Source: Streptomyces sp. DSM 15324
GTDB lineage: Bacteria > Actinomycetota > Actinomycetes > Streptomycetales > Streptomycetaceae
DNA: 64,000 nucleotides
Reading direction: 5' to 3'
NCBI RefSeq assembly: GCF_001514285.1
Contig: NZ_KQ949025.1
Span: forward strand, 499,571-563,570
The translations under genes and the position numbers were made by a program. Numbering within the stretch: position 1 is the stretch's first letter; every line of letters starts with the position of its first letter. Below the pieces are notes generated by a model that ran no database searches, had not been told where the DNA came from, and saw only the letters and a program-made list of their open reading frames with translations. Positions 19,568 to 63,709 of this stretch are shown here, piece after piece.

Positions 19568-21022
19568 TCAGCCGAGGTCGATCTCCGGGTACAGCGGGAA
19601 GCCCGCGACCAGGTCCGTCGCCCGCTGGGAGATCTCGTCCGCCACCTTCGCGTCCAGGACGTGGGTCGCCTTGCTCGGCGCGCCGGACTTCGTCGTGCCC
19701 TGCTCGGTGGTGGTGAGGACGCGGTCGATCAGGCCCGCGACCTCGTCCATCTCCGCCGTGCCGAGGCCGCGGGTGGTCAGGGCGGGGGTGCCGATGCGGA
19801 TGCCGGAGGTGTACCAGGCGCCGTTCGGGTCGGCGGGGATCGCGTTGCGGTTGGTGACGATGCCCGAGTCGAGGAGGGCGGCCTCGGCCTGGCGGCCGGT
19901 GAGGCCGTAGGAGGAGGCGACGTCGATCAGGTTGAGGTGGTTGTCGGTGCCGCCGGTGACCAGGGTGGCGCCCCGGCGCGCCAGGCCCTCGGCCAGGGCG
20001 CGGGAGTTGTCGACGATCCGCTGGGCGTAGTCCTGGAACGCGGGCTGCCGGGCCTCGGCCAGGGCGACGGCCTTGGCGGCCATCACGTGCGGGAGCGGGC
20101 CGCCGAGGACCATCGGGCAGCCGCGGTCGACCTGGTCCTTGAGGGAGTCGTCGCACAGGACCATGCCGCCGCGCGGGCCGCGCAGGGACTTGTGGGTGGT
20201 CGTGGTGACGATCTGGGCGTGCGGGACCGGGTCGAAGTCGCCGGTCAGGACCTTGCCGGCGACCAGGCCCGCGAAGTGCGCCATGTCGACCATGAGGGTC
20301 GCGCCGACCTCGTCGGCGATCTCGCGCATGATCCGGAAGTTCACCAGACGCGGGTAGGCGGAGTAGCCGGCGACCACGATCAGCGGCTTGAACTCCCGGG
20401 CCTGGGCACGCAGGGCGTCGTAGTCGATGAGGCCGGTCGCCGGGTCGGTGCCGTAGGAGCGCTGGTCGAACATCTTGCCGCTGATGTTCGGGCGGAAGCC
20501 GTGGGTGAGGTGGCCGCCCGCGTCCAGGGACATGCCGAGCATGCGCTGGTTGCCGAAGGCCTGGCGCAGCTCCGCCCAGTCGGCCTCGGTCAGGTCGTTG
20601 ACCTGGCGGGCGCCGGTCTTCTCCAGGAAGGGGACCTCGACGCGGTCGGCGAGGACGGCCCAGAAGGCGACCAGGTTGGCGTCGATGCCGGAGTGCGGCT
20701 GGACGTAGGCGTGGCGGGCGCCGAAGAGTTCGCGGGCGTGCTCGGCTGCGAGCGCCTCGACCGTGTCGACGTTGCGGCAGCCGGCGTAGAAGCGGCGGCC
20801 GACGGTGCCCTCGGCGTACTTGTCGCTGAACCAGTTGCCCATCGCGAGGAGGGTGGCCGGGGAGGCGTAGTTCTCGGAGGCGATCAGCTTGAGCATCTCG
20901 CGCTGGTCCTGGACCTCCTGGCCGATGGCGTCGGCGACGCGCGGCTCGACGGCGCGGATCACGTCGAGGGCGGCGCGGAAGGCGGTGGACTCGGTGGACA
21001 GGCGTGCGGAATCGGCAGACAT
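19568..21022 (-). CDS. glyA: Serine hydroxymethyltransferase (long form)
   Basis: 484 residues. PLP-binding Lys lies in [39 protein letters not shown] and [12 protein letters not shown] are further signatures. It interconverts serine and glycine while forming 5,10-methylene-tetrahydrofolate. It is about 65 residues longer than the E. coli enzyme because of insertions in the first half, typical of one actinobacterial clade. A ZTP riboswitch lies just upstream, linking expression to one-carbon and purine status. Confidence 0.97.
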
Positions 21023-49123: not shown

Positions 49124-50287
49124 TCACACGGTGTCCGGCACGGGCAGCGGACGCTTCTCGATCGCCGCCGCCATCACCTCCGGGAACAGGTCCGGGGTGC
49201 AGGCGAACGCCGGTACGCCCAGGGCCGAGAGCGCGGCGGCGTGCTCCCGGTCGTAGGCGGGGGCCCCCTCGTCCGAGAGCGCGAGCAGCGCCACGAACTG
49301 CACGCCCGACGCCTTCATCGCCGCGACCCGCTTCAGCATCTCGTCGCGTATGCCGCCCTCGTACAGGTCGCTGATCAGCACGACGACCGTCTCGGCGGGC
49401 CGGGTGATCCGCGACTGGCAGTAGGCGAGCGCCCGATTGATGTCCGTACCGCCGCCGAGGCGGGTGCCGAAGAGGACGTCGACCGGGTCGGCCAGCCGGT
49501 CGGTGAGGTCGACGACCGCCGTGTCGAAGACGACGAGCCGGGTGTCGAGGGACCGCAGGGAGGCGAGCACCGCCCCGAACACGGAGGCGTGGACCACCGA
49601 GGCCGCCATCGACCCGGACTGGTCGACGCAGAGGACGACGTCCTTCCTGAGGGACCGTGCCGCCCGCCCGTGTCCGACCAGCCGCTCCGGCACGACCGTC
49701 CCGTGCTCGGGCAGGTAGTGCTTGAGGTTGGCGGCGATGGTGCGGTTCCAGTCGATGTCGTGGTGGCGTGGCCGGTGGACGCGGGCCCCCCGGTCGAGGG
49801 CGCCGGTGAGAGTGGCCCGGGTCCGGGTCGCGAGCCGCCGCTCCAGGTCCTCGACCACCTTGCGGACGACGGCCCGTGCCGTCTCCTTCACCGTCTCCGG
49901 CATCGCCTGGCTGAGCGAGAGCAGCGTGCCGACGAGATGGACGTCGGCCTCGACCGCCTCCAGCATCTCCGGCTCCAGCAGCAGCGCCGACAGCCCGAGC
50001 CGGTCGATGGCGTCACGCTGCATCACCTGGACGACGGAGGTCGGGAAGTACGTCCGGATGTCCCCGAGCCAGCGCGCCACGGACGGCGCCGACACCCCGA
50101 GCCCCGCCGAACGGTCCCGTCCCGCCGCAGGCCGCTCCGCCTTTCCGTAGAGCGCGGTGAGCGCCCCGTCCATCGCGGCGTCCCGCCCGGACAGCTGCCG
50201 CCCGGTGCCGTCCGCCGCGTCCCCGCCGAGCACCAGCCGCCATCGCCGCAGCCGCTCCTGAGCCGTGTCGCCCGCCTCGACCGTCAT
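49124..50287 (-). CDS. VWA domain protein (CoxE-like, MoxR-associated)
   Basis: 387 residues. The helical N-terminal half is followed by a von Willebrand A domain with the metal site D222-x-S224-x-S226 (VDQSGSM), FDTAVVDLTD, GGGTDINRAL and VVLISDLYEGG. VWA proteins paired with MoxR AAA+ ATPases act as substrate adaptors or metal-cofactor chaperones. It overlaps the DUF5682 stop by 4 bases (ATGA) and closes the minus-strand operon of MoxR, small ORF, DUF5682, VWA. Confidence 0.92.
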   Translation of the reverse strand: MTVEAGDTAQERLRRWRLVLGGDAADGTGRQLSGRDAAMDGALTALYGKAERPAAGRDRSAGLGVSAPSVARWLGDIRTYFPTSVVQVMQRDAIDRLGLSALLLEPEMLEAVEADVHLVGTLLSLSQAMPETVKETARAVVRKVVEDLERRLATRTRATLTGALDRGARVHRPRHHDIDWNRTIAANLKHYLPEHGTVVPERLVGHGRAARSLRKDVVLCVDQSGSMAASVVHASVFGAVLASLRSLDTRLVVFDTAVVDLTDRLADPVDVLFGTRLGGGTDINRALAYCQSRITRPAETVVVLISDLYEGGIRDEMLKRVAAMKASGVQFVALLALSDEGAPAYDREHAAALSALGVPAFACTPDLFPEVMAAAIEKRPLPVPDTV

Positions 50288-52812
50288 CTGCCCACCCCCG
50301 CCAAGTCGCCGTCCATGCCGCCGTCAGCGCCGGTGTGGAAGCCGCCGCCCAACCCACCGTCCGAGCCGCCGCCCAACCCGCCGCCACCGCCGGGGTCGAA
50401 GCCGCCGCCCGAGCCGCCGTCAGGGTCGGAGTCGAAGCCGCCGTCCAGCCCCAGCAGCAGCCGTACCACCGGCAGCACCGCGCCCGCGCGCTCCTCGTCG
50501 AGGCCTGCCGCGAACCCGGGCACGCCCGCCCCCGGCCGCAACGCGCCCGCCCGCTCCCCGGGCCCCCGCCGGACCAGTTCGCCGAGCGTTCTGCGCACCC
50601 CCGGCTCGTAGGCCGAGAACGTCCGCCGCAGCAGCGGCAGCACATCCGTGAACGCCTCGGCCGGCACCCCCGTGAGCCAGCCGTCGACCAGCGCGAGCAG
50701 CCGCTCGTCGTGCACGAGGAGCAGTCCTCCCCCCGCACCGCCGCCGACGAAGCCCTCGATCCACGCGGCCGCGTCCCGGGGCGCCGTCCGGGGCGACAGC
50801 GCGAGCCCCATGAGCCGGGCCGCCTCCTCCTGCCCCACCGCCCCGTCGTCGAGCAGCAGCCGCACCGCCCGCCCCCGTACGACGCCCGCGACCCGGTCCC
50901 GCCCCGACAGCGCCCGCAGCACGGCTCGCCAGCGCGCCCGCAGCGCACCGCGACGCGCGAGCGGGCCGTCCGTCGCCGGAGCAGTCCCGTCGTCGCCCGG
51001 GGCCGCCGTCTCCTCCAGCAGCCCCACCGACCCCTGCACCGCGTCCACGTGCCGCCGCATCTCCTCCGCCGCGTCGGCGTCCAGACCGGTGCAGGCCGGG
51101 GGCAGCCCGACGAAGATCCGTTCCGCGAGGCCGGTGGCGACCTCCGCGAGCGCTCCGGTGTCGGTACCACGTACGTCGCCGTAGCGCAGGGAGCGGACCA
51201 GGGCGGGCAGCGCCTCGGCGAGGCGGCCGACGTCCGTGTCCAGCGCCGCCCGGTCGGCGAGGACCCGCATCACGACCGTCAGCGCGTCGGGGAGAGCGGC
51301 CGCCAGACAGTGTTCGGCGAGGGCGGTCACCTCGGCGAGGTCGCGCGCGCACACGGCGTCCGCCTCGGCCTTGGCGGTCGCCGCGGCGCGTACGGTCGTC
51401 CCCCACACGCCGGCCTCGGCGACCCGCACGGACAGTTCCGGTTCCCAGCGCAGCCGCCAGGTCTCCCGGAAGGTCCCCGTACTGCCCCGCGACGCCACCG
51501 GCTCGCCCCAGGCGACGCCCAGCAGCCGCAGCCGGTGCAGGAGTCTGCTGCGCCCGGCGTCGGTGTCCTTGCGCAGATCGAGTTCCGCCTCCCGCTCCGC
51601 CGCCTCCGGTTTCAGCCGCAGCCGGCGCTGGGCCCGGTCGAGGTCCCGTTGCAGGGGCACGGCCGGCGCGCCGGGGGGCACCTCCCCGAGCACGTCCCCG
51701 ATCACGAGCCGGTCCCGCACCAGCGCCAGCGGTACGTCCGACCCGTCGCCCAGCACGGCCCGAACCGCGTCGGTGGTCTCCCCCAGACCGGGCAGCGGCC
51801 GGCCGCGCAGCGCGGCGAGCGTCTCGGCGAGCCGGACCGCCTCGATGACATCAGCAGGGGACACGATCCGGTCCTCCGCGCGCAGCAGCCCGGCCACCTT
51901 GGCCAGCCATCGCTCGACCGGCCGGTCGGGCGCACCGAACAGGTGCGCGTACCAGCCGGGCGAGTCGATGCCCGCCCCGTACCCCCCGTCCCGGGCCAGC
52001 CTGCGGTGGGTCCACGGCACCCAGGTCAGCTCGGCCCTGACCTTGGCGAGCCCTTTCAGCAGGGCCCGGTCGTCGGCGACGGCCGCCTTGCGGCGCAGGG
52101 CCGGCACATGCCAGGCCCCGCACACCACGGCCACCCCGCCGTCTCCGCACTCCCTTTGTGCCGACCGCACCTGGAGCCGCATGTGCGCTTCCCGTACGAG
52201 GTCGCGGTTCCCCTCCGTGCCCTCGTACGTCTCCCGTACCGCCGTCATCGCCTCCTCGACGGCGGCGAAGGGAGCGAGCGGGTCGCCTCCGCCCGCTCCC
52301 CGATGCTCGACGACGTCCTCCCACCAGCGTTCGGCGTCGTCGTACCCCGCGGCCTCGGCGAGCGCGCCGAGCGGGTCGATGCGCAGTGCGCCGCCCGGCG
52401 TGCCGCTCCGTTCCTCCACGGCCGGTCCGTCCTCGGCCTCCGCCCGGCCTTCCCAGGCCAGGGTGTGGGCGGCGGGGAGGTCGATGAAGCGGGCCGGAAC
52501 GCCCTGCTCCAGCGCCCAGCGCAGCGCCACCCACTCGGGGGAGAACTCGGCCATCGGCCAGAACGCGGAGCGTCCCGGCTCGTCGACGGCGTGGGCGAGC
52601 AGCGCGACCGGCGGCCGCATGTCCCGCCCGGCGGCGAGAGGGATCAGCGGGTCGGCCTCGGGCGGGCCTTCGATCAGCACGGTCCGGGGCCGGGCGGCCT
52701 CCAGCGCCGCCCGCACCGCCCGCGCCGATCCGGGGCCGTGATGCCGCACCCCGAGCAGCAGCGGCCACCGCACGTCCTCGCCCGACCGCCCGTTCCCCTG
52801 AATCCCCGTCAT
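50284..52812 (-). CDS. DUF5682 family protein
   Basis: 842 residues. It starts WPLLLGVRHHGPGSARAVRAAL and contains VLIEGPPEADPLIPLA, FIDLPAAH, and VVCGAWHVPAL, which have the look of TraB/ChaN-like folds with conserved His/Glu (RHHGPGS, EGPPE, GAWH). The middle and C-terminus are helical repeats. The last 50 residues are Gly/Asp/Phe-rich repeats (GGGFDPGGGGGLGGG). Family always linked to MoxR and VWA genes; activity unknown. ATG 52812 has a G-rich ribosome site; it is separated from the small ORF upstream by a tandem repeat array. Confidence 0.87.
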   Translation of the reverse strand: MTGIQGNGRSGEDVRWPLLLGVRHHGPGSARAVRAALEAARPRTVLIEGPPEADPLIPLAAGRDMRPPVALLAHAVDEPGRSAFWPMAEFSPEWVALRWALEQGVPARFIDLPAAHTLAWEGRAEAEDGPAVEERSGTPGGALRIDPLGALAEAAGYDDAERWWEDVVEHRGAGGGDPLAPFAAVEEAMTAVRETYEGTEGNRDLVREAHMRLQVRSAQRECGDGGVAVVCGAWHVPALRRKAAVADDRALLKGLAKVRAELTWVPWTHRRLARDGGYGAGIDSPGWYAHLFGAPDRPVERWLAKVAGLLRAEDRIVSPADVIEAVRLAETLAALRGRPLPGLGETTDAVRAVLGDGSDVPLALVRDRLVIGDVLGEVPPGAPAVPLQRDLDRAQRRLRLKPEAAEREAELDLRKDTDAGRSRLLHRLRLLGVAWGEPVASRGSTGTFRETWRLRWEPELSVRVAEAGVWGTTVRAAATAKAEADAVCARDLAEVTALAEHCLAAALPDALTVVMRVLADRAALDTDVGRLAEALPALVRSLRYGDVRGTDTGALAEVATGLAERIFVGLPPACTGLDADAAEEMRRHVDAVQGSVGLLEETAAPGDDGTAPATDGPLARRGALRARWRAVLRALSGRDRVAGVVRGRAVRLLLDDGAVGQEEAARLMGLALSPRTAPRDAAAWIEGFVGGGAGGGLLLVHDERLLALVDGWLTGVPAEAFTDVLPLLRRTFSAYEPGVRRTLGELVRRGPGERAGALRPGAGVPGFAAGLDEERAGAVLPVVRLLLGLDGGFDSDPDGGSGGGFDPGGGGGLGGGSDGGLGGGFHTGADGGMDGDLAGVGR

Positions 52813-52847
52813 CCGCTTGCCCCCCCTGTCATCCCGTCGCACCGCCA

Positions 52848-53056
52848 GATCCGCGCCTTCAGATCCGGGTCGTCAGATCCGCACCTTCAGATCCACGTCG
52901 TCAGACCCGGGTCGTCAGATCCGCACCTTCAGATCCACGTCGTCAGACCCGGGCCACCAGACCAAGGCCACAGCCCTGGGCCACCAGCCCCGGGCCCCCA
53001 CACCTGGACCATCAGTTCCGGCCCTTCAGCCCTGGGCCATCAGATCCGGGCCACCA
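52848..53056. repeat. Array of fifteen imperfect 14-bp tandem repeats
   Basis: Read on the minus strand, units such as TGGTGGCCCGGATC, TGATGGCCCAGGGC, TGACGACGTGGATC and TGAAGGTGCGGATC follow head to tail from 53056 to 52848. Fourteen are 14 bp and one is 13 bp. Within it a 42-bp block is repeated exactly (52867-52908 and 52909-52950). It fills most of the gap before the DUF5682 gene. Confidence 0.92.
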
Positions 53057-53080
53057 GCTGCGGGATCACCGCACCCGTCG

Positions 53081-53194
53081 TCACACGCGCGGCCAGCGCG
53101 AGTCCTTGTCGTCGTTCACGCGGTTCATGTGCTCACCCCCCTTCCGTGCCGGTCGCAGCCGCGGCCACCTCGAGTCCTCGTCGTTCCGGTTCAC
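53081..53194 (-). CDS. Small ORF of 37 residues with a duplicated motif, coupled to moxR
   Basis: GTG 53194 overlaps the MoxR stop (GTGA), with GAGG 7 bases upstream inside moxR. The peptide contains NRNDEDSRWPRL near its start and NRVNDDKDSRWPRV at its end, joined by a basic linker RPARKGGEH, so one acidic-Trp motif occurs twice. An internal ATG at 53128 with GGAAGGGGGG upstream could start the second half alone. I recognise no family. The coupling and internal repeat argue that it is a real gene rather than chance. Confidence 0.6.
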   Translation of the reverse strand: MNRNDEDSRWPRLRPARKGGEHMNRVNDDKDSRWPRV

Positions 53195-54321
53195 GCACTC
53201 ACCTCCCTGCAGGCGCGGTAGAAGTCGCCCCAGCCGTCGCGTTCGCGGAGCACCGTCTCCAGGTACTCCTGCCAGACGACCCGGTCGGCGGCCGGATCGC
53301 GGACGACAGCGCCGAGGATTCCCGCGGCGAGGTCGCCGGGCCGCAGCACACCGTCGCCGAAGTGGGCGGCCAGGGCGAGGCCGCCGGTGACGACGGAGAT
53401 GGCTTCGGCGGTGGACAACGTGCCGCTGGGAGACTTCAGCTTGGTTCGGCCGTCGCCGGTGATGCCGTCCCGCAGTTCACGGAAGACGGTCACCACGCGA
53501 CGGATCTCGTCGACCCCGTGCGGTACGGCCGGCAGCTCGAGGGAGCGGCCGATCTGGTCGACACGCCGCGCCACGATGTCGACTTCGGCGTCGACGCTCG
53601 CCGGCAGCGGCAGCACCACCGTGTTGAAACGGCGGCGCAGGGCGCTGGACAGTTCATTGACCCCGCGGTCCCGATCGTTGGCAGTGGCGATCAGGTTGAA
53701 GCCGCGAACCGCCTGAACCTCCTGCCCCAGTTCAGGTATCGGCAGCGTCTTCTCCGACAGGATGGTGATGAGTGTGTCCTGAACGTCGGCGGGGACGCGA
53801 GTCAATTCCTCGACGCGGACCGTCGCCCCCTCCCCCATGGCGCGCATGACGGGACTGGGCACGAGGGCGTCCGGGCTCGGGCCGTGCGCCAGCAGCTGCG
53901 CGTAGTTCCAGCCGTAGCGGATGGCCTCCTCCGGGGTGCCCGCCGTGCCCTGCACCAGCAGGGTCGAGTCACCGCTGACCGCCGCGGCCAGGTGCTCGGA
54001 CACCCAGGTCTTGGCGGTTCCGGGCACGCCGAGCAGGAGCAGGGCGCGGTCGGTGGCGAGCGTGCTGACGGCCACCTCGACGATGCGGCGCGGGCCCACG
54101 TACTTCGGTGTGATCGCCGTGCCGTCGGGCAGGGTGCCGCCGAGGAGATAGGTGGCGACGGCCCACGGCGACAGCTTCCAGCGGGCCGGCCGCGGCCGGT
54201 CGTCCTGGGCGGCGAGCGCGGCGAGTTCATCGGCGAAGGCGTCTTCGGCATGCGGCCGCAACGCCTGCGCGGGCTGGGTCTGACCGGGTTTCACGAACGT
54301 CGGGTCTACGGACACGGACAT
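53191..54321 (-). CDS. MoxR family AAA+ ATPase
   Basis: 376 residues. Walker A G98-V-P-G-T-A-K-T105, Walker B in ATVRVEELTRVP, sensor 1 in FNLIATANDRDRGVNELS, and an arginine finger region SSALRRRFN. MoxR ATPases remodel or mature protein complexes together with VWA partners. ATG 54321 has GGAGGGGA upstream; an in-frame Met at 54387 is not preferred. It leads the minus-strand operon and has a damage-type promoter upstream (54365-54387). Confidence 0.94.
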   Translation of the reverse strand: MSVSVDPTFVKPGQTQPAQALRPHAEDAFADELAALAAQDDRPRPARWKLSPWAVATYLLGGTLPDGTAITPKYVGPRRIVEVAVSTLATDRALLLLGVPGTAKTWVSEHLAAAVSGDSTLLVQGTAGTPEEAIRYGWNYAQLLAHGPSPDALVPSPVMRAMGEGATVRVEELTRVPADVQDTLITILSEKTLPIPELGQEVQAVRGFNLIATANDRDRGVNELSSALRRRFNTVVLPLPASVDAEVDIVARRVDQIGRSLELPAVPHGVDEIRRVVTVFRELRDGITGDGRTKLKSPSGTLSTAEAISVVTGGLALAAHFGDGVLRPGDLAAGILGAVVRDPAADRVVWQEYLETVLRERDGWGDFYRACREVSA

Positions 54322-54364
54322 GGCTGAGGTCCCCTCCAGCTCGGCCGGTTCGGGTCTGGTGTCC

Positions 54365-54387
54365 ACCGTGCACCACCCCACTGACAA
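54365..54387 (-). promoter_or_regulatory. PafBC/RecA-NDp-type promoter of the moxR operon
   Basis: On the minus strand TTGTCAGTG, 8 bases (GGGTGGTG), then CACGGT. This fits tTGTCRgtg-N8-TAnnnT except that the first T of the -10 is C. The expected start lies about 37 bases before moxR ATG. It faces an identical element for the SWIM gene. Confidence 0.7.
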
Positions 54388-54458
54388 TCCGTTGTGACCT
54401 GCGAAAACGCCGCGGATCGAGGATGCGGCGGCCCCGCGCGGGGCCGATTGTCAGTGGG
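54377..54458. repeat. 13-bp inverted repeat between moxR and the SWIM gene
   Basis: CCCACTGACAATC at 54377-54389 and GATTGTCAGTGGG at 54446-54458 are perfect inverted copies. They are the upstream halves of the two divergent damage-type promoters. Confidence 0.92.
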
Positions 54459-54470
54459 AGGGCCTACCGT
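54448..54470 (+). promoter_or_regulatory. PafBC/RecA-NDp-type promoter of the SWIM-DUF5691 operon
   Basis: TTGTCAGTG at 54448-54456, 8 bases (GGAGGGCC), TACCGT at 54465-54470: a full match to the mycobacterial and streptomycete RecA-independent damage promoter. The start would be at or next to ATG 54478, giving a leaderless message. Confidence 0.82.
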
Positions 54471-54477
54471 CGACGAC

Positions 54478-55839
54478 ATGACTCAGCAGGAGGTGCGCTG
54501 GACCGCGGACCGGGTGCTGGCACTGGCGCCTGATTCCGCGTCACGCAAAGCGGGCAGCAAACTCGGCGTGGCCGCGGCGTGGTCCGGGACGGGCAGGTCG
54601 CGGGAGGGGACGGTGTGGGGGGTGTGCGGCGGCAGCGGCGGCGTGCCGTATCGCGCGGTCGTCGACACCGCTGCCGCGCCCGGCACCCCCGGACCGTGGT
54701 GCGCGTGCACGTGCCCGAGCCGCAAGTCCCCGTGCGAGCACGCCCTCGGTCTGCTGCTGCTCCGGTCGGCCGGGGAGGTGGCCGTCCCGGTGGGGCCGGC
54801 GCCGGACTGGGCCGAGAAGTGGATCGCGCGACGGCAGGGGCCTACGCAGGAGAAGGGGGAGGTGGGCGCGGCGGGTCCCGGCTCCGGACCGGCCGATCCG
54901 GAGGCGGCGCGCCGGAGGGCGGAGCGGCGCGCCGAGCGGATCACCGCGGGGGCGACGGAGCTGGAGCAACGGCTGGCCGATCTCCTGCGCTCCGGCCTCG
55001 CCACGGCCGAGCAGGCGGGGTACGGGCTGTGGGAGGAGACGGCGGCCCGCATGGTCGACGCCCAGGCCCCCGGACTGGCGGCGCGCGTGCGGGAGTTGGG
55101 GGCGATACCGGGGTCCGGACCCGACTGGCCGGTCCGGCTGCTGGAGGAGTGCGCCCTGCTCCACCTCCTCGACCAGGGCTGGCTGCACCGCGAGCGGCTC
55201 CCGGAGACCCTGGCCGCCACGGTCCGCTCCCGTGTCGGCCTGACCGCCCGGCCGGCCGGCCCGCCGCTGCGCGACCACTGGCTGGTCCTCGCCCAGCACG
55301 ACACGCCGGACCCGAAACTGACGACCCGCCGGATCTGGCTGCACGGCATCGCCTCGGGCCGCACGGTCCTCGTTCTGTCCTACGGCGCCGCGGGCCGCGC
55401 CCCCGACCTCGCCCTGCCGGTCGGGCTGGCCCTGGACGCCGAGCTGTCCGTCCATCCGGGCAGCGGGCGGCGACGGGCGGCGCTGGGCGAGCAGTTCGCG
55501 CCACCGGCACCGACCACGGCCCGCCCGCCGGGCCTGACGACGGCCGCGGCGGCCGCGCACTACGGCGCGTCGCTGCGCGACGACCCCTGGCAGGAGTCCG
55601 TGCCGGTGACCCTGGACGGCGTCGTCCCGACCCCTGACGGCCCGTCCTGGCAGCTGGCCGACGCCGACGGGGACACGGCCCTGCCGCTCACCCCGGCGGC
55701 CGCCGCCCGTCCGGGCCTGTGGCGGCTGGTCGCGCTCTCGGGCGGCGCCCCGGTGACGGTGTTCGGCGAGTGCGGCCACCGGGGTTTCACCCCGCTGACC
55801 GCCTGGCCGCCCGGCCCGGGAGAGGCGGTACCGCTGTGA
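54478..55839 (+). CDS. SWIM zinc-finger protein
   Basis: 453 residues. The SWIM finger CxCxnCxH is seen as PWCACTCPSRKSPCEHALGL (C77/C79 with C86 and H88; C75 also present). A helical region and a C-terminal beta-rich part follow (WRLVALSGGAPVTVFGECGHRGFTPL in parts). SWIM domains bind DNA or protein and occur in repair-related proteins. ATG 54478 fits the leaderless promoter above. It overlaps the DUF5691 start (GTGA). Confidence 0.88.
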   Translation: MTQQEVRWTADRVLALAPDSASRKAGSKLGVAAAWSGTGRSREGTVWGVCGGSGGVPYRAVVDTAAAPGTPGPWCACTCPSRKSPCEHALGLLLLRSAGEVAVPVGPAPDWAEKWIARRQGPTQEKGEVGAAGPGSGPADPEAARRRAERRAERITAGATELEQRLADLLRSGLATAEQAGYGLWEETAARMVDAQAPGLAARVRELGAIPGSGPDWPVRLLEECALLHLLDQGWLHRERLPETLAATVRSRVGLTARPAGPPLRDHWLVLAQHDTPDPKLTTRRIWLHGIASGRTVLVLSYGAAGRAPDLALPVGLALDAELSVHPGSGRRRAALGEQFAPPAPTTARPPGLTTAAAAAHYGASLRDDPWQESVPVTLDGVVPTPDGPSWQLADADGDTALPLTPAAAARPGLWRLVALSGGAPVTVFGECGHRGFTPLTAWPPGPGEAVPL

Positions 55840-57533
55840 CCGAGACTGAAGGGACACCCCTGCACGCGCACGCCACGCCGACCCCCATCGCCACGTCGAC
55901 CTCCGTCGCCGCGCCCGTCCCCACGCCCCTCTCGGACACGGCCCCCGCCTGGGAGGACCTGGTCACCGCCGCCCTCCTGGGCACGGATCGCCGTCCGCCC
56001 CCCGGGTCCGTCACCGGCCGTCCGGCGCCGTCCGCGCTGCTGGACGCGGCGGCGGCCGAGACCGTACGGCGCCGGGCGGGGCTGCGTCCGGGACGGGCCG
56101 CGACCCGCCCCGAACCGGCCCCCGCCGACCCGCGCCCCACCCTGCCCGCTCCCGCGGCCCGCAGACTCGCCCTGCTGCTCGCCGACCGCGCCGGCACCGG
56201 CGGAACGGGGCGCAGGGGGACCGCACCGGACCTCGTGGAGCTGCTGCCCCAGTGGCTGGCGGCGGCGAACGCGCACGGGTACGCCCCGCCCGCCGAGGCC
56301 CTGCCCGCGCTGCTCGACGCGGCACGCGGGCGTACCGACCTGCGGCCGGCGGCGCTGAGGTTCGCGGGCCCGCGCGCGCTGTGGCTGGCCCGGCTGAACC
56401 CGGAGTGGCGGTTCGCGCTGCGCGCCGCGCCCGGCGGGGACGCCGCGCTGCCGCGCCCGGAGGAGACCGGGCGGATCGAGAAACTGTGGCAGGAGGGCCT
56501 GTTCGCCGAGCGGGTCGCCCTCCTCGCCTCGCTGCGCTCCCGCGCCCCCGACACGGCCCGCGCCCTGCTGGAGTCGACCTGGTCCACGGAGCGCGCGGAG
56601 GACCGGCTGATGTTCCTCGACTCGCTGCGCGCGGGCCTCGGTGAGCGGGACGAGCCGTTCCTGGAGGCGGCGCTGACGGACCGCAGCCGCAATGTACGGG
56701 CGACGGCGGCCGAGTTGCTGTCGGCGCTGCCGGGTTCGGCGCTCGCCGCGCGGATGGCGGTGCGGGCGGGCGCGTGCGTGGCCGTCGACCACACCGGCGA
56801 CACGCCGACGCTCGTCGTCGAGGCGCCCCATGTGTGCGACGCGGAGATGGAGCGCGACGGCGTCGCCCCCAAGGCCCCGTCGGGCCGGGGTGAGCGGTCG
56901 TGGTGGCTCGGCCAGCTGGTGGAGGCGGCCCCGCTCACCGCCTGGCCGGCCCGGCTGGGCGGGCGGACACCGGAGCGGATCGTCGCACTCCCGGTGGCCG
57001 ACGACTGGCTGGGCGAGCTGCACGCGGCCTGGTGCCGGGCCGCCGTACGGCAGCGGGACGCGGCCTGGTCGCGGGCGCTGCTCGGACCGCCGTCCGCGCC
57101 CGGGGCGGGCGGTCCTGGCGCGGTGTCCCTGGCCGAGCGGGCCAAGCTGCTGGCCACCCTGCCGGTGGGCGAACGGGCGGAGTGGGTGGCCGGTTTCATC
57201 GCGGCGCACGGGCTGTCGGAGGCGTTCCAGCTGCTCGGCGTCTGCGCGGTGCCGTGGGCCGCGCCGCTCGGGCGGGCGGTGGTCGACGCCCTCAACATCG
57301 CGCGCGACGCGGGAAGTTACCCGTGGAGTTTCAGCGGGGTGATGGGTCTCGCCGAACGCTGTCTGGACCCCTCGGAGGCCTCCCGGCTGGACGCGCTGCT
57401 CGCCGTACCCGACGAACCGGAGGACGCGTCCCCCGGGGCCGGGGGCTACTGGGCCGAGGCCTTCCAGCGCCTGGGGAGGACCCTGCGGCTGAGAGCGGTG
57501 ATGGCACGGGAACTGGGTGGCGGGCCGTCGTGA
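55836..57533 (+). CDS. DUF5691 family protein
   Basis: 565 residues. WEDLVTAALLGTDRRPPP near residue 31 and a long run of helical, HEAT-like repeats (RAEDRLMFLDSLRAGLGERDEPFLEAAL, DRSRNVRATAAELLSAL, in parts) fit DUF5691, a family always found with SWIM, MoxR and VWA genes. GTG 55836 overlaps the SWIM stop. It is probably a scaffold in the same process; no catalytic motif is evident. Confidence 0.87.
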   Translation: MTETEGTPLHAHATPTPIATSTSVAAPVPTPLSDTAPAWEDLVTAALLGTDRRPPPGSVTGRPAPSALLDAAAAETVRRRAGLRPGRAATRPEPAPADPRPTLPAPAARRLALLLADRAGTGGTGRRGTAPDLVELLPQWLAAANAHGYAPPAEALPALLDAARGRTDLRPAALRFAGPRALWLARLNPEWRFALRAAPGGDAALPRPEETGRIEKLWQEGLFAERVALLASLRSRAPDTARALLESTWSTERAEDRLMFLDSLRAGLGERDEPFLEAALTDRSRNVRATAAELLSALPGSALAARMAVRAGACVAVDHTGDTPTLVVEAPHVCDAEMERDGVAPKAPSGRGERSWWLGQLVEAAPLTAWPARLGGRTPERIVALPVADDWLGELHAAWCRAAVRQRDAAWSRALLGPPSAPGAGGPGAVSLAERAKLLATLPVGERAEWVAGFIAAHGLSEAFQLLGVCAVPWAAPLGRAVVDALNIARDAGSYPWSFSGVMGLAERCLDPSEASRLDALLAVPDEPEDASPGAGGYWAEAFQRLGRTLRLRAVMARELGGGPS

Positions 57534-61213: not shown

Positions 61214-63709
61214 CTACAGCTTCTCGACCGGCGCGTACCGCAGCAGCAGCCGCTTCGGCTTGCTGTCGCCGAAGTCGATGGTCGCCTCCGCGTTCCCGCC
61301 CGTGCCCTTCACGCCCACGACCGTGCCCAGCCCGAACTGGTCGTGGGTGACGCGGTCGCCGACGGCCAGCGCGACCACCGGCTTCTCCGTCGCGCCCCGG
61401 CGGGTCGCGAAGCCGGAGGCGCCGGCCGCCGAGGACCGCGAGCGGGACGAGGACAGCGAGGCCGCCACACCGAAGACCGGACCGGAGGACACGGGCGCGC
61501 TCGCCCCCTTCCGCTTCCAGTCCACATGGGTCGCCGGGATCTCCTCCAGGAACCGGGAGGGCGGGTTGTACGACGGCTGGCCCCAGGCGCTGCGCAGCGA
61601 GGACCGCGTGAGGTAGAGCCGCTCCCGCGCGCGCGTGATGCCGACGTAGGCCAGCCGGCGCTCCTCCTCGAGCTCCTTGGCCTGGCCGAGGGCGCGCATG
61701 TGCGGGAACACGCCGTCCTCCATGCCGGTGAGGAAGACGACCGGGAACTCCAGCCCCTTGGCGGTGTGCAGGGTCATCAGGGTGATGACCCCGGAGCCGT
61801 CCTCGTCCTCGTCGGGGATCTGGTCGGAGTCGGCGACGAGCGCGACCCGCTCCAGGAAGGCGGCGAGACCACCGGTGGCCGCGCCCTCCCCCTCGGCCTG
61901 CTCCTGCTCGAACTCCAGGGCCACGGCGGCGAGTTCCTGGAGGTTCTCGATGCGGGTCTCGTCCTGCGGGTCGGTGGAGGCCTGCAACTCGGCCAGATAG
62001 CCGGTGCGTTCGAGCACGGCCTCGAGGACGGTCGCGGGGCCCGCGCCGGACTCGACGATCGTCCGCAGCTCCTCCATCAGCACGTTGAACCGCTTCACCG
62101 CGTTCGTGGAGCGCGCGGCCATGCCGTACGCCTCGTCGACGCGCTTGAGGGCCTGCGGGAAGCTGATCTTCTCGCGCTGGGAGAGGGCGTCGATCATCGC
62201 CTCGGCGCGGTCGCCGATGCCGCGCTTGGGGACGTTGAGGATCCGGCGCAGCGGGACGGAGTCCTCCGGGTTGGCGAGGACGCGCAGGTAGGCCAGGACG
62301 TCCCGGACCTCCTTGCGCTCGTAGAAGCGGACACCGCCGACGACCTTGTAGGGCAGGCCGACGCGGATGAAGACCTCTTCGAAGACCCGGGACTGGGCGT
62401 TGGTGCGGTAGAAGACGGCGACATCGCCGGCCTTGGCGTCGCCCGCGTCGGTGAGGCGGTCTATCTCGTCGGCGACGAACTGCGCCTCGTCGTGCTCGGT
62501 GTCGGCGACATAGCCGGTGATGCGCGCGCCCGCGCCCGCGTTGGTCCACAGGTTCTTCGGGCGGCGGGACTCGTTGCGCTCGATGACGGCGTTGGCGGCG
62601 GACAGGATCGTCTGCGTGGAGCGGTAGTTCTGTTCGAGCAGGATCGTCGTCGCGTCCGGGTAGTCCTCCTCGAACTGGAGGATGTTGCGGATCGTCGCAC
62701 CGCGGAAGGCGTAGATCGACTGGTCGGCGTCACCGACGACGCACAGTTCGGCGGGCGGGACGTCGTACTCGTTGGGCGGGACGTCGACGGGGTGTTCAAA
62801 GGTGCCGACCAGCTCCCTGACCAGGGCGTACTGGGCGTGGTTGGTGTCCTGGTACTCGTCGACGAGGACATGACGGAAGCGGCGGCGGTAGTGCTCGGCG
62901 ACGTCGGGGAAGGCACGCAGCAGATTGACCGTCGTCATGATCAGGTCGTCGAAGTCGAGCGCGTTGGCCTCGCGGAGCCGGGACTGGTACATCGCGTAGG
63001 CCTGGGCGAGGGTCTTCTCGAAGCCGTCGGCGGCCTGGGCGGCGAAGTCCTCCTCGTCGATCAGTTCGTTCTTCAGGTTGCTGATCTTGGCGCTGAAGGA
63101 CTTGGGCGGGTAGCGCTTGGGGTCCAGGTCCAGATCGCGGCAGACCAGGGCCATCAGCCGCTTGGAGTCCGCGGCGTCGTAGATGGAGAAGGAGGACGTG
63201 AAGCCGAGCTTCTTCGACTCGCGGCGCAGGATCCGCACGCACGCGCTGTGGAAGGTCATCACCCACATCGCGTTCGCGCGCGGGCCGACGAGCTGCTCGA
63301 CGCGCTCCTTCATCTCACCCGCGGCCTTGTTGGTGAAGGTGATCGCGAGGATCTGGCCCGGGTGGACGCCGCGCTCGGCAAGGAGGTGGGCGATGCGGTG
63401 GGTGAGCACACGGGTCTTGCCCGAGCCGGCGCCCGCGACGATGAGCAGGGGGGTGCCGGCGTGGACGACGGCCGCGCGCTGGTTGTCGTTGAGCCCCTCC
63501 AGGAGGGCGGCCGCGTCGATCGCCGGACGCGGGGCGCCGTCGCGGTAGTACGCGTCCCGGTCCGGGGGTGCGTCGAACTTCCCGCCGAACAGATCGTCCG
63601 GAAGCGACTCCGGACCGTGATCGTCCTCGGGCGGCGGCGGGGGTTCCTCCTCGTGGCCCGCGGGGGCCTGGAGGTTCGCCAGGAAGCTGTCGTCAAAGAG
63701 GCTGCTCAT
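61214..63709 (-). CDS. pcrA: ATP-dependent DNA helicase PcrA (UvrD superfamily)
   Basis: 831 residues. Superfamily 1 motifs in order: GAGSGKTRVLTHR (I), FTNKAAGEM (Ia), DEYQDTNHAQY (II), GDADQSIYAFRGA (III), LEQNYRST (IV), LMTLHTAKGLEFPVVFLTG (V) and YVGITRARERLYL (VI). A C-terminal Tudor-like tail ends in GVKGTGGNAEATIDFGDSKPKRLLLRYAPVEKL (in parts). It unwinds 3'-5' in repair and at stalled forks. ATG 63709 is preceded by a full damage-type promoter match. Confidence 0.97.
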   Translation of the reverse strand: MSSLFDDSFLANLQAPAGHEEEPPPPPEDDHGPESLPDDLFGGKFDAPPDRDAYYRDGAPRPAIDAAALLEGLNDNQRAAVVHAGTPLLIVAGAGSGKTRVLTHRIAHLLAERGVHPGQILAITFTNKAAGEMKERVEQLVGPRANAMWVMTFHSACVRILRRESKKLGFTSSFSIYDAADSKRLMALVCRDLDLDPKRYPPKSFSAKISNLKNELIDEEDFAAQAADGFEKTLAQAYAMYQSRLREANALDFDDLIMTTVNLLRAFPDVAEHYRRRFRHVLVDEYQDTNHAQYALVRELVGTFEHPVDVPPNEYDVPPAELCVVGDADQSIYAFRGATIRNILQFEEDYPDATTILLEQNYRSTQTILSAANAVIERNESRRPKNLWTNAGAGARITGYVADTEHDEAQFVADEIDRLTDAGDAKAGDVAVFYRTNAQSRVFEEVFIRVGLPYKVVGGVRFYERKEVRDVLAYLRVLANPEDSVPLRRILNVPKRGIGDRAEAMIDALSQREKISFPQALKRVDEAYGMAARSTNAVKRFNVLMEELRTIVESGAGPATVLEAVLERTGYLAELQASTDPQDETRIENLQELAAVALEFEQEQAEGEGAATGGLAAFLERVALVADSDQIPDEDEDGSGVITLMTLHTAKGLEFPVVFLTGMEDGVFPHMRALGQAKELEEERRLAYVGITRARERLYLTRSSLRSAWGQPSYNPPSRFLEEIPATHVDWKRKGASAPVSSGPVFGVAASLSSSRSRSSAAGASGFATRRGATEKPVVALAVGDRVTHDQFGLGTVVGVKGTGGNAEATIDFGDSKPKRLLLRYAPVEKL

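Follow-up and report, generated by a model that had tools for sequence, protein, structure and literature searches.

The analysed window, a 64,000-nucleotide stretch of the genome of Streptomyces sp. DSM 15324, contains two divergently oriented gene runs, each of which is predicted to form a single operon. On the plus strand, a SWIM zinc-finger protein gene (54478–55839) is followed by a DUF5691 gene (55836–57533; Pfam DUF5691, E 1.7e-174), whose predicted GTG start overlaps the SWIM stop codon. The Pfam SWIM score is 18.1 bits against a cut-off of 19.6, and the CxC...CxH signature is present in the translation. The minus-strand run begins with a MoxR-type AAA+ ATPase gene (53191–54321; Pfam AAA_5, E 6.2e-37), which has an inferred ATG at 54321 after a GGAGGGG stretch and a Pfam bpMoxR score of 23 against a cut-off of 27. 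It continues with a DUF5682 gene (50284–52809, start inferred; Pfam DUF5682, E 1.3e-293) and a gene for a CoxE-like von Willebrand factor A (vWA) protein (49124–50287; Pfam VWA_CoxE, E 5e-59). Tandem repeats of about 14, 28 and 42 bp occupy positions 52838–53058, between moxR and the DUF5682 gene, and the gap between these two genes is much shorter in some relatives (e.g., locus L034). Assignment to a known defence system was set aside, as none of the five proteins had a PADLOC match at E 0.001. No literature on the five-gene set was found among papers judged by their titles and the beginnings of their abstracts.

Two promoter-like sites lie back to back between the gene runs. The plus-strand site (54448–54470) reads TTGTCAGTG-GGAGGGCC-TACCGT and matches TTGTCRGTG-N8-TAnnnT without mismatch; its −26 element, TTGTCAGTG, is located at 54448–54456 and its −10 element, TACCGT, at 54465–54470, with the N8 spacing. 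The minus-strand site (54387–54365) reads TTGTCAGTG-GGGTGGTG-CACGGT, with an exact −26 element at 54379–54387 and a −10 element at 54365–54370, in which C replaces the first T and accounts for the single mismatch. Both −26 elements are kept in relatives, where the −10 element before moxR has the form CAnnnT. A TGGTGCA stretch (54369–54375, minus strand) runs from the spacer end into this −10 element. The −26 elements are embedded in an inverted repeat with a left arm, CCCACTGACAATC, at 54377–54389 and a right arm, GATTGTCAGTGGG, at 54446–54458, which are exact reverse complements separated by 56 bp. The sites, the perfect 13-bp repeat and its 56-bp gap are therefore positioned as originally predicted; the plus site fits the class consensus exactly, and the minus site departs from it at the first −10 base. 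The SWIM ATG is found 7 nt downstream of the plus-site −10 element, and the SWIM transcript is therefore probably leaderless.

The consensus in question, tTGTCRgtg-8 nt-TannnT, is that of a known damage-inducible promoter (PMC5656591). In Streptomyces, the UV-inducible recA promoter of S. rimosus, TTGTCAGTGGC-N6-TAGggT (Ahel 2002, quoted in PMC2375139), agrees with the plus site in its words and their distance, although the gene that it serves is recA. A 2008 comparison reported related motifs before 67 S. coelicolor genes, including repair genes (PMC2375139), a set that may include the present operons. The S. coelicolor macrodomain gene SCO6735 has a promoter of the same RecA-NDp class and is 5-fold up after UV; the available passages give no regulator for it, and the word PafBC is absent from that paper (PMC5087735). 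A macro-domain gene of the DSM 15324 genome also has a class site (L002).

Within the window, six matches with at most two mismatches were found, against a mean of 1.13 in shuffled sequences, and none of 100 shuffles reached six. One is a third good site, an exact match, TTGTCGGTG-N8-TAGACT (63741–63719, minus strand), 9 nt upstream of the start codon of the DNA helicase gene pcrA (61214–63709, minus strand; NCBIfam pcrA, 1107 bits, cut-off 911). The matches at 19941, 20190 and 32839, with two mismatches each and no evident role, are probably due to chance. The region between the operons has no outstanding LexA box. Within positions 54281–54500, the best match to tCGAAC-N4-GNNCGa (PMC9380542) is located in moxR and deviates at two positions, a level of similarity reached 172 times in the window; LexA control through a promoter-near box was accordingly rejected.

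Both promoters are conserved in the Streptomyces loci compared. SWIM matches were obtained in 34 of 37 Streptomyces genomes, and 33 loci were compared after one genome (G027), in which the match begins at residue 129, was left out. The SWIM promoter is exact in 31/33 loci, and in the other two its first T is replaced by C, so that the −26 element has the form [T/C]TGTC[A/G]GTG in all 33; the moxR promoter, scored with CAnnnT, is exact in 32/33 and has one mismatch in 1/33. The core words vary little or not at all, in contrast to most of the SWIM spacer, and positions T1, A2 and T6 of the SWIM −10 element are unchanged in all 33 loci. The SWIM −10 element is separated from the start codon by 7 nt in 32 loci and by 6 nt in one. 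The moxR promoter retains its TGGTGCA stretch, which is invariant or nearly so across the 33 loci. The two cores are 26 to 719 bp apart, with more than 600 bp between them in six loci. In a second Streptomyces set, the best-scoring 80 of 514 relatives and hence closely related to one another, the SWIM promoter was found in 79 loci and the moxR promoter in all 80; the exception (L175) lacks one base of the SWIM −26 word. Since the first −10 base of the moxR promoter is C in 33/33 and 80/80 loci, this promoter is not a textbook site. In the 79 close relatives with both sites (within L114–L193), the gaps cluster at 36–38, 48–49 and 60–61 bp, which may be explained by relatedness.

Outside Streptomyces, the gene set is arranged differently. 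In a sister family within the same taxonomic order (12 loci, all that matched), the SWIM, DUF5691, MoxR, DUF5682 and vWA genes are co-directional as far as each stretch reaches. By a promoter pattern written after these loci had been seen, 11/12 have a SWIM promoter whose −26 word is altered at no more than two bases, and the twelfth (L078) has CTGTCGGAG-N8-TAGGGT at the SWIM start by a looser pattern. A second promoter, TTGTCAGTG-N8-CAnnAT, precedes DUF5691 in 8/12 loci, where it also contains the TGGTGCA stretch, and is missing in the other four (L105, L111, L112 and L113). The five genes likewise form a single co-directional run in 20 loci of four further families, taken out of 36 non-Streptomyces genomes of the class with DUF5691. 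In 17/20 of these loci, an in-frame SWIM start follows a degenerate motif, xTGTCnnnG-N8-[TC]AnnnT, at a distance of 5 to 9 nt, a descriptive figure because this looser pattern was written after the sequences had been seen. By family, the motif is kept in 15/15, 2/2, 0/2 and 0/1 loci, those without it being L220, L224 and L233. The same test applied to every ATG or GTG of the 20 loci succeeded at 30 of 18,077, SWIM starts included.

The exact motif occurs at 31 sites in the 9.38-Mb source genome, whereas a backwards control pattern has none. Thirty of the sites were taken as loci, and a downstream gene was chosen for 28 by reading frame and third-position G+C; for the identical copies L020 and L021, no downstream gene was found. 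The resulting set resembles a regulon. Thirteen of the 28 sites precede repair, recombination, replication or dTMP-synthesis genes, namely those for an ogt-type methyltransferase, UvrB, a DinG/YoaA-like helicase, RecA, a UvrD-like helicase, XseA, PcrA, a RarA-like ATPase, RuvC, a RecD2-domain protein, DnaX, uracil-DNA glycosylase and ThyX (the DinG-, UvrD- and RarA-like names reflect NCBIfam matches under the curated cut-offs). Other exact sites precede genes without an evident tie to damage, such as moaA and the gene for a SUKH-4 protein, and Pfam gave nothing at E 0.0001 for the downstream genes of L014, L018, L019, L022, L023 and L030. The reading frame of the thyX gene with the class site (L028) also contains matches to intein-splicing and HNH models. 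At 10 of the 31 exact sites, an RTG codon occurs exactly 7 nt past the −10 element, and leaderless starts therefore seem, from this spacing, to be common in the promoter class.

The CAnnnT form seen before moxR has 21 sites in the source genome, against two for the backwards pattern; from this enrichment, CAnnnT may be an accepted −10 variant of the class. Twenty of these sites were taken as loci, and the genes downstream of them, read by eye from the frames, include parC, lhr, ligA, dinB and tex. Three of the sites (L085, L092 and L100) are probably chance occurrences because long opposite-strand reading frames cover them. A gene for a sigma-70 family (TIGR02960) factor is preceded by two tandem sites of the class (L090 and L011; contig C3, 454009 and 454220), spaced by about 200 bp. 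The composite word TTGTCAGTGGNNTGGTGCANNNT is present in 110/150 Streptomyces genomes, no backwards match being among the results listed, and occurs at two places in the source genome, one of which precedes the gene read by eye as dinB; this gene has the TGGTGCA stretch in common with moxR.

Exact sites are not peculiar to this strain. Each of the 28 Streptomyces genomes in the class sample carries 9 to 52 of them, and backwards matches number four in all. Stratton 2022 noted that an initial search suggested non-conservation of the M. smegmatis motif in S. venezuelae, and did not settle the existence of a damage response independent of RecA/LexA in Streptomyces (PMC9380542). Absence of the motif across the genus is unlikely, since all 28 sampled genomes carry sites, and the non-conservation remark looks doubtful if extended to the genus.

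A further protein family is connected to the promoter class. The one DUF4132 gene found in the source genome (L027/L235) has an exact class promoter upstream. DUF4132 was found in 30/61 Streptomyces genomes with one locus each, and 11 further matches gave no locus. Counting C for the first T, a class site lies upstream in 24 of these 30 loci: all 12 long forms (L265–L276), for which extra upstream DNA was searched, L249, and 11 of the 14 loci comprising L235 and L250–L262. One locus (L264) has a further motif variant, and L248, L253, L255, L262 and L263 have no site in the upstream stretch examined. One of the two long DUF4132 proteins scanned contains a WGR domain; such domains are found in PARP enzymes and attach to broken DNA. 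In eight loci (L269–L276), a leaderless class site precedes a small frame of about 110 to 130 codons, and in the three that were looked at (L269, L272 and L275) a long frame follows it. The small frame of L275 had no Pfam match.

In mycobacteria, the same consensus marks the PafBC regulon, which has recA as a common target and in which pafBC is tied to the Pup-proteasome locus (PMC5656591, PMC11804915, PMC8223512). There, the PafB helix-turn-helix engages the −26 motif in a process of sigma adaptation with single-stranded DNA as the signal; association of PafBC with promoter DNA was observed only when RNA polymerase and single-stranded DNA were present (PMC11804915). The available portions of these three sources name no MoxR-SWIM set in the mycobacterial regulon; the MoxR1 and MoxR2 genes (MSMEG_3147 and 3148) were lower in the pafBC mutant. 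In the DSM 15324 genome, pafB and pafC, with HTH_PafC, WYL and WCX domains, adjoin pafA and tatC. The original prediction had presented PafBC as the activator of the damage promoter of mycobacteria and of Streptomyces recA. PafBC dependence has been demonstrated in mycobacteria; in Streptomyces, the sites point to PafBC by their likeness to the mycobacterial consensus.

The two sites are very probably independent, divergent promoters of the RecA-NDp (PafBC) class that would be activated through PafBC upon DNA damage. This agrees with the back-to-back damage-promoter arrangement first proposed, which is supported by cores that are kept at any distance from each other, a motif that marks repair genes, the presence of pafBC and the want of an outstanding LexA box. 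Damage would lead to a build-up of single-stranded DNA, whereupon PafBC, acting with the housekeeping RNA polymerase, would bind TTGTCAGTG at −26, and transcription would proceed from both promoters. Transcription from the plus promoter would begin at the SWIM start codon or right beside it and take in the SWIM and DUF5691 genes; the minus transcript, with moxR and the DUF5682 and vWA genes, would carry a ribosome-binding site within a leader of about 35 nt.

A damage promoter of the same class could also answer to a different activator in Streptomyces, for instance ClgR or a WYL-domain protein other than PafBC. In mycobacteria, recognition of the RecA-independent promoter by ClgR has been reported (cited in PMC5656591), and SiwR, another WYL protein, is said to bind a −26 region (PMC10693628). 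HTH_PafC scored above its cut-off in 286 of 296 genomes of the class, and nine genomes had no match; four of these nine nevertheless have exact sites (six in G294 and one each in G110, G117 and G120), three of the four being 76 to 81% complete. With PafC this widespread, presence and absence could not tie the motif to the regulator, and the pattern neither supports nor breaks the link. Against another activator, the motif agrees with the consensus later assigned to PafBC (PMC11804915, PMC8223512), and pafB and pafC adjoin pafA in the source genome, so that a different activator is judged unlikely. That the promoters are ordinary housekeeping or developmentally controlled ones, with a −26 likeness that plays no part in damage, might be argued from class sites before genes such as moaA, but it is very unlikely: TTGTCAGTG hardly changes, if at all, in contrast to most of the SWIM spacer, and the same word marks recA, uvrB, ruvC and pcrA.

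The perfect complementarity of the arms in the source genome, and the clustered gap lengths of its close relatives, would suit a single palindromic operator through which a dimeric regulator controls both operons. This reading is scarcely credible and was rejected: over the 33 loci, both cores persist although their separation lies anywhere between 26 and 719 bp and is above 600 bp in six. Each core, moreover, has its own −10 element at a fixed distance, and in other families the core stands at the SWIM start without a divergent partner. The inverted repeat thus arises from the divergent placement of the two promoters, and conservation does not extend to the repeat as such.

With two independent damage-class promoters as the preferred reading, the relationships of the five genes can be considered. 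The MoxR, DUF5682 and vWA proteins are homologous to YehL, YehM and YehP of the E. coli yehI-yehK-yehL-yehM-yehP-yehQ cluster, with identities of 41% (YehL), 29% over 569 columns (YehM) and 38% (YehP). The E. coli cluster likewise includes a SWIM protein (YehQ) and a DUF4132 protein (YehI). BLASTP revealed no kinship between the SWIM protein of the window and YehQ, the zinc-finger type alone being common to both. BLASTP likewise showed no homology of the short DUF4132 protein of the source genome to YehI, although Pfam DUF4132 matches both. DUF5691 was found in 1/14 control genomes, that of Deinobacterium chartae, and is therefore absent from E. coli, which was among the 14. The MoxR-vWA ternary conflict systems also pair MoxR with a vWA partner, as here, but have partners of their own (VMAP, iSTAND, FtsH or beta-propeller, and variable effectors), and the word SWIM is absent from the available text describing them (PMC7159879).

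The promoter class itself was already known, and the interest of the present locus is that it would place an uncharacterised gene set in the damage response. Since relatives keep both promoters, the five genes under their control are probably part of the response to damaged DNA. Tentatively, and with somewhat less than even confidence, the SWIM, DUF5691, MoxR, DUF5682 and vWA proteins may constitute one actinobacterial DNA-damage machine built on the core of the uncharacterised E. coli yehLMP genes, which the DUF4132 proteins, including one that has a WGR domain, would join through the same promoter; after a split and inversion in Streptomyces, both halves would have kept or gained a class promoter. 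The 9 to 52 sites in each of the 28 Streptomyces genomes, together with the repair genes marked here, make the question left by Stratton 2022 directly testable. For a gene set of unknown function, whose core is common to E. coli, the two promoters would provide a first testable role.
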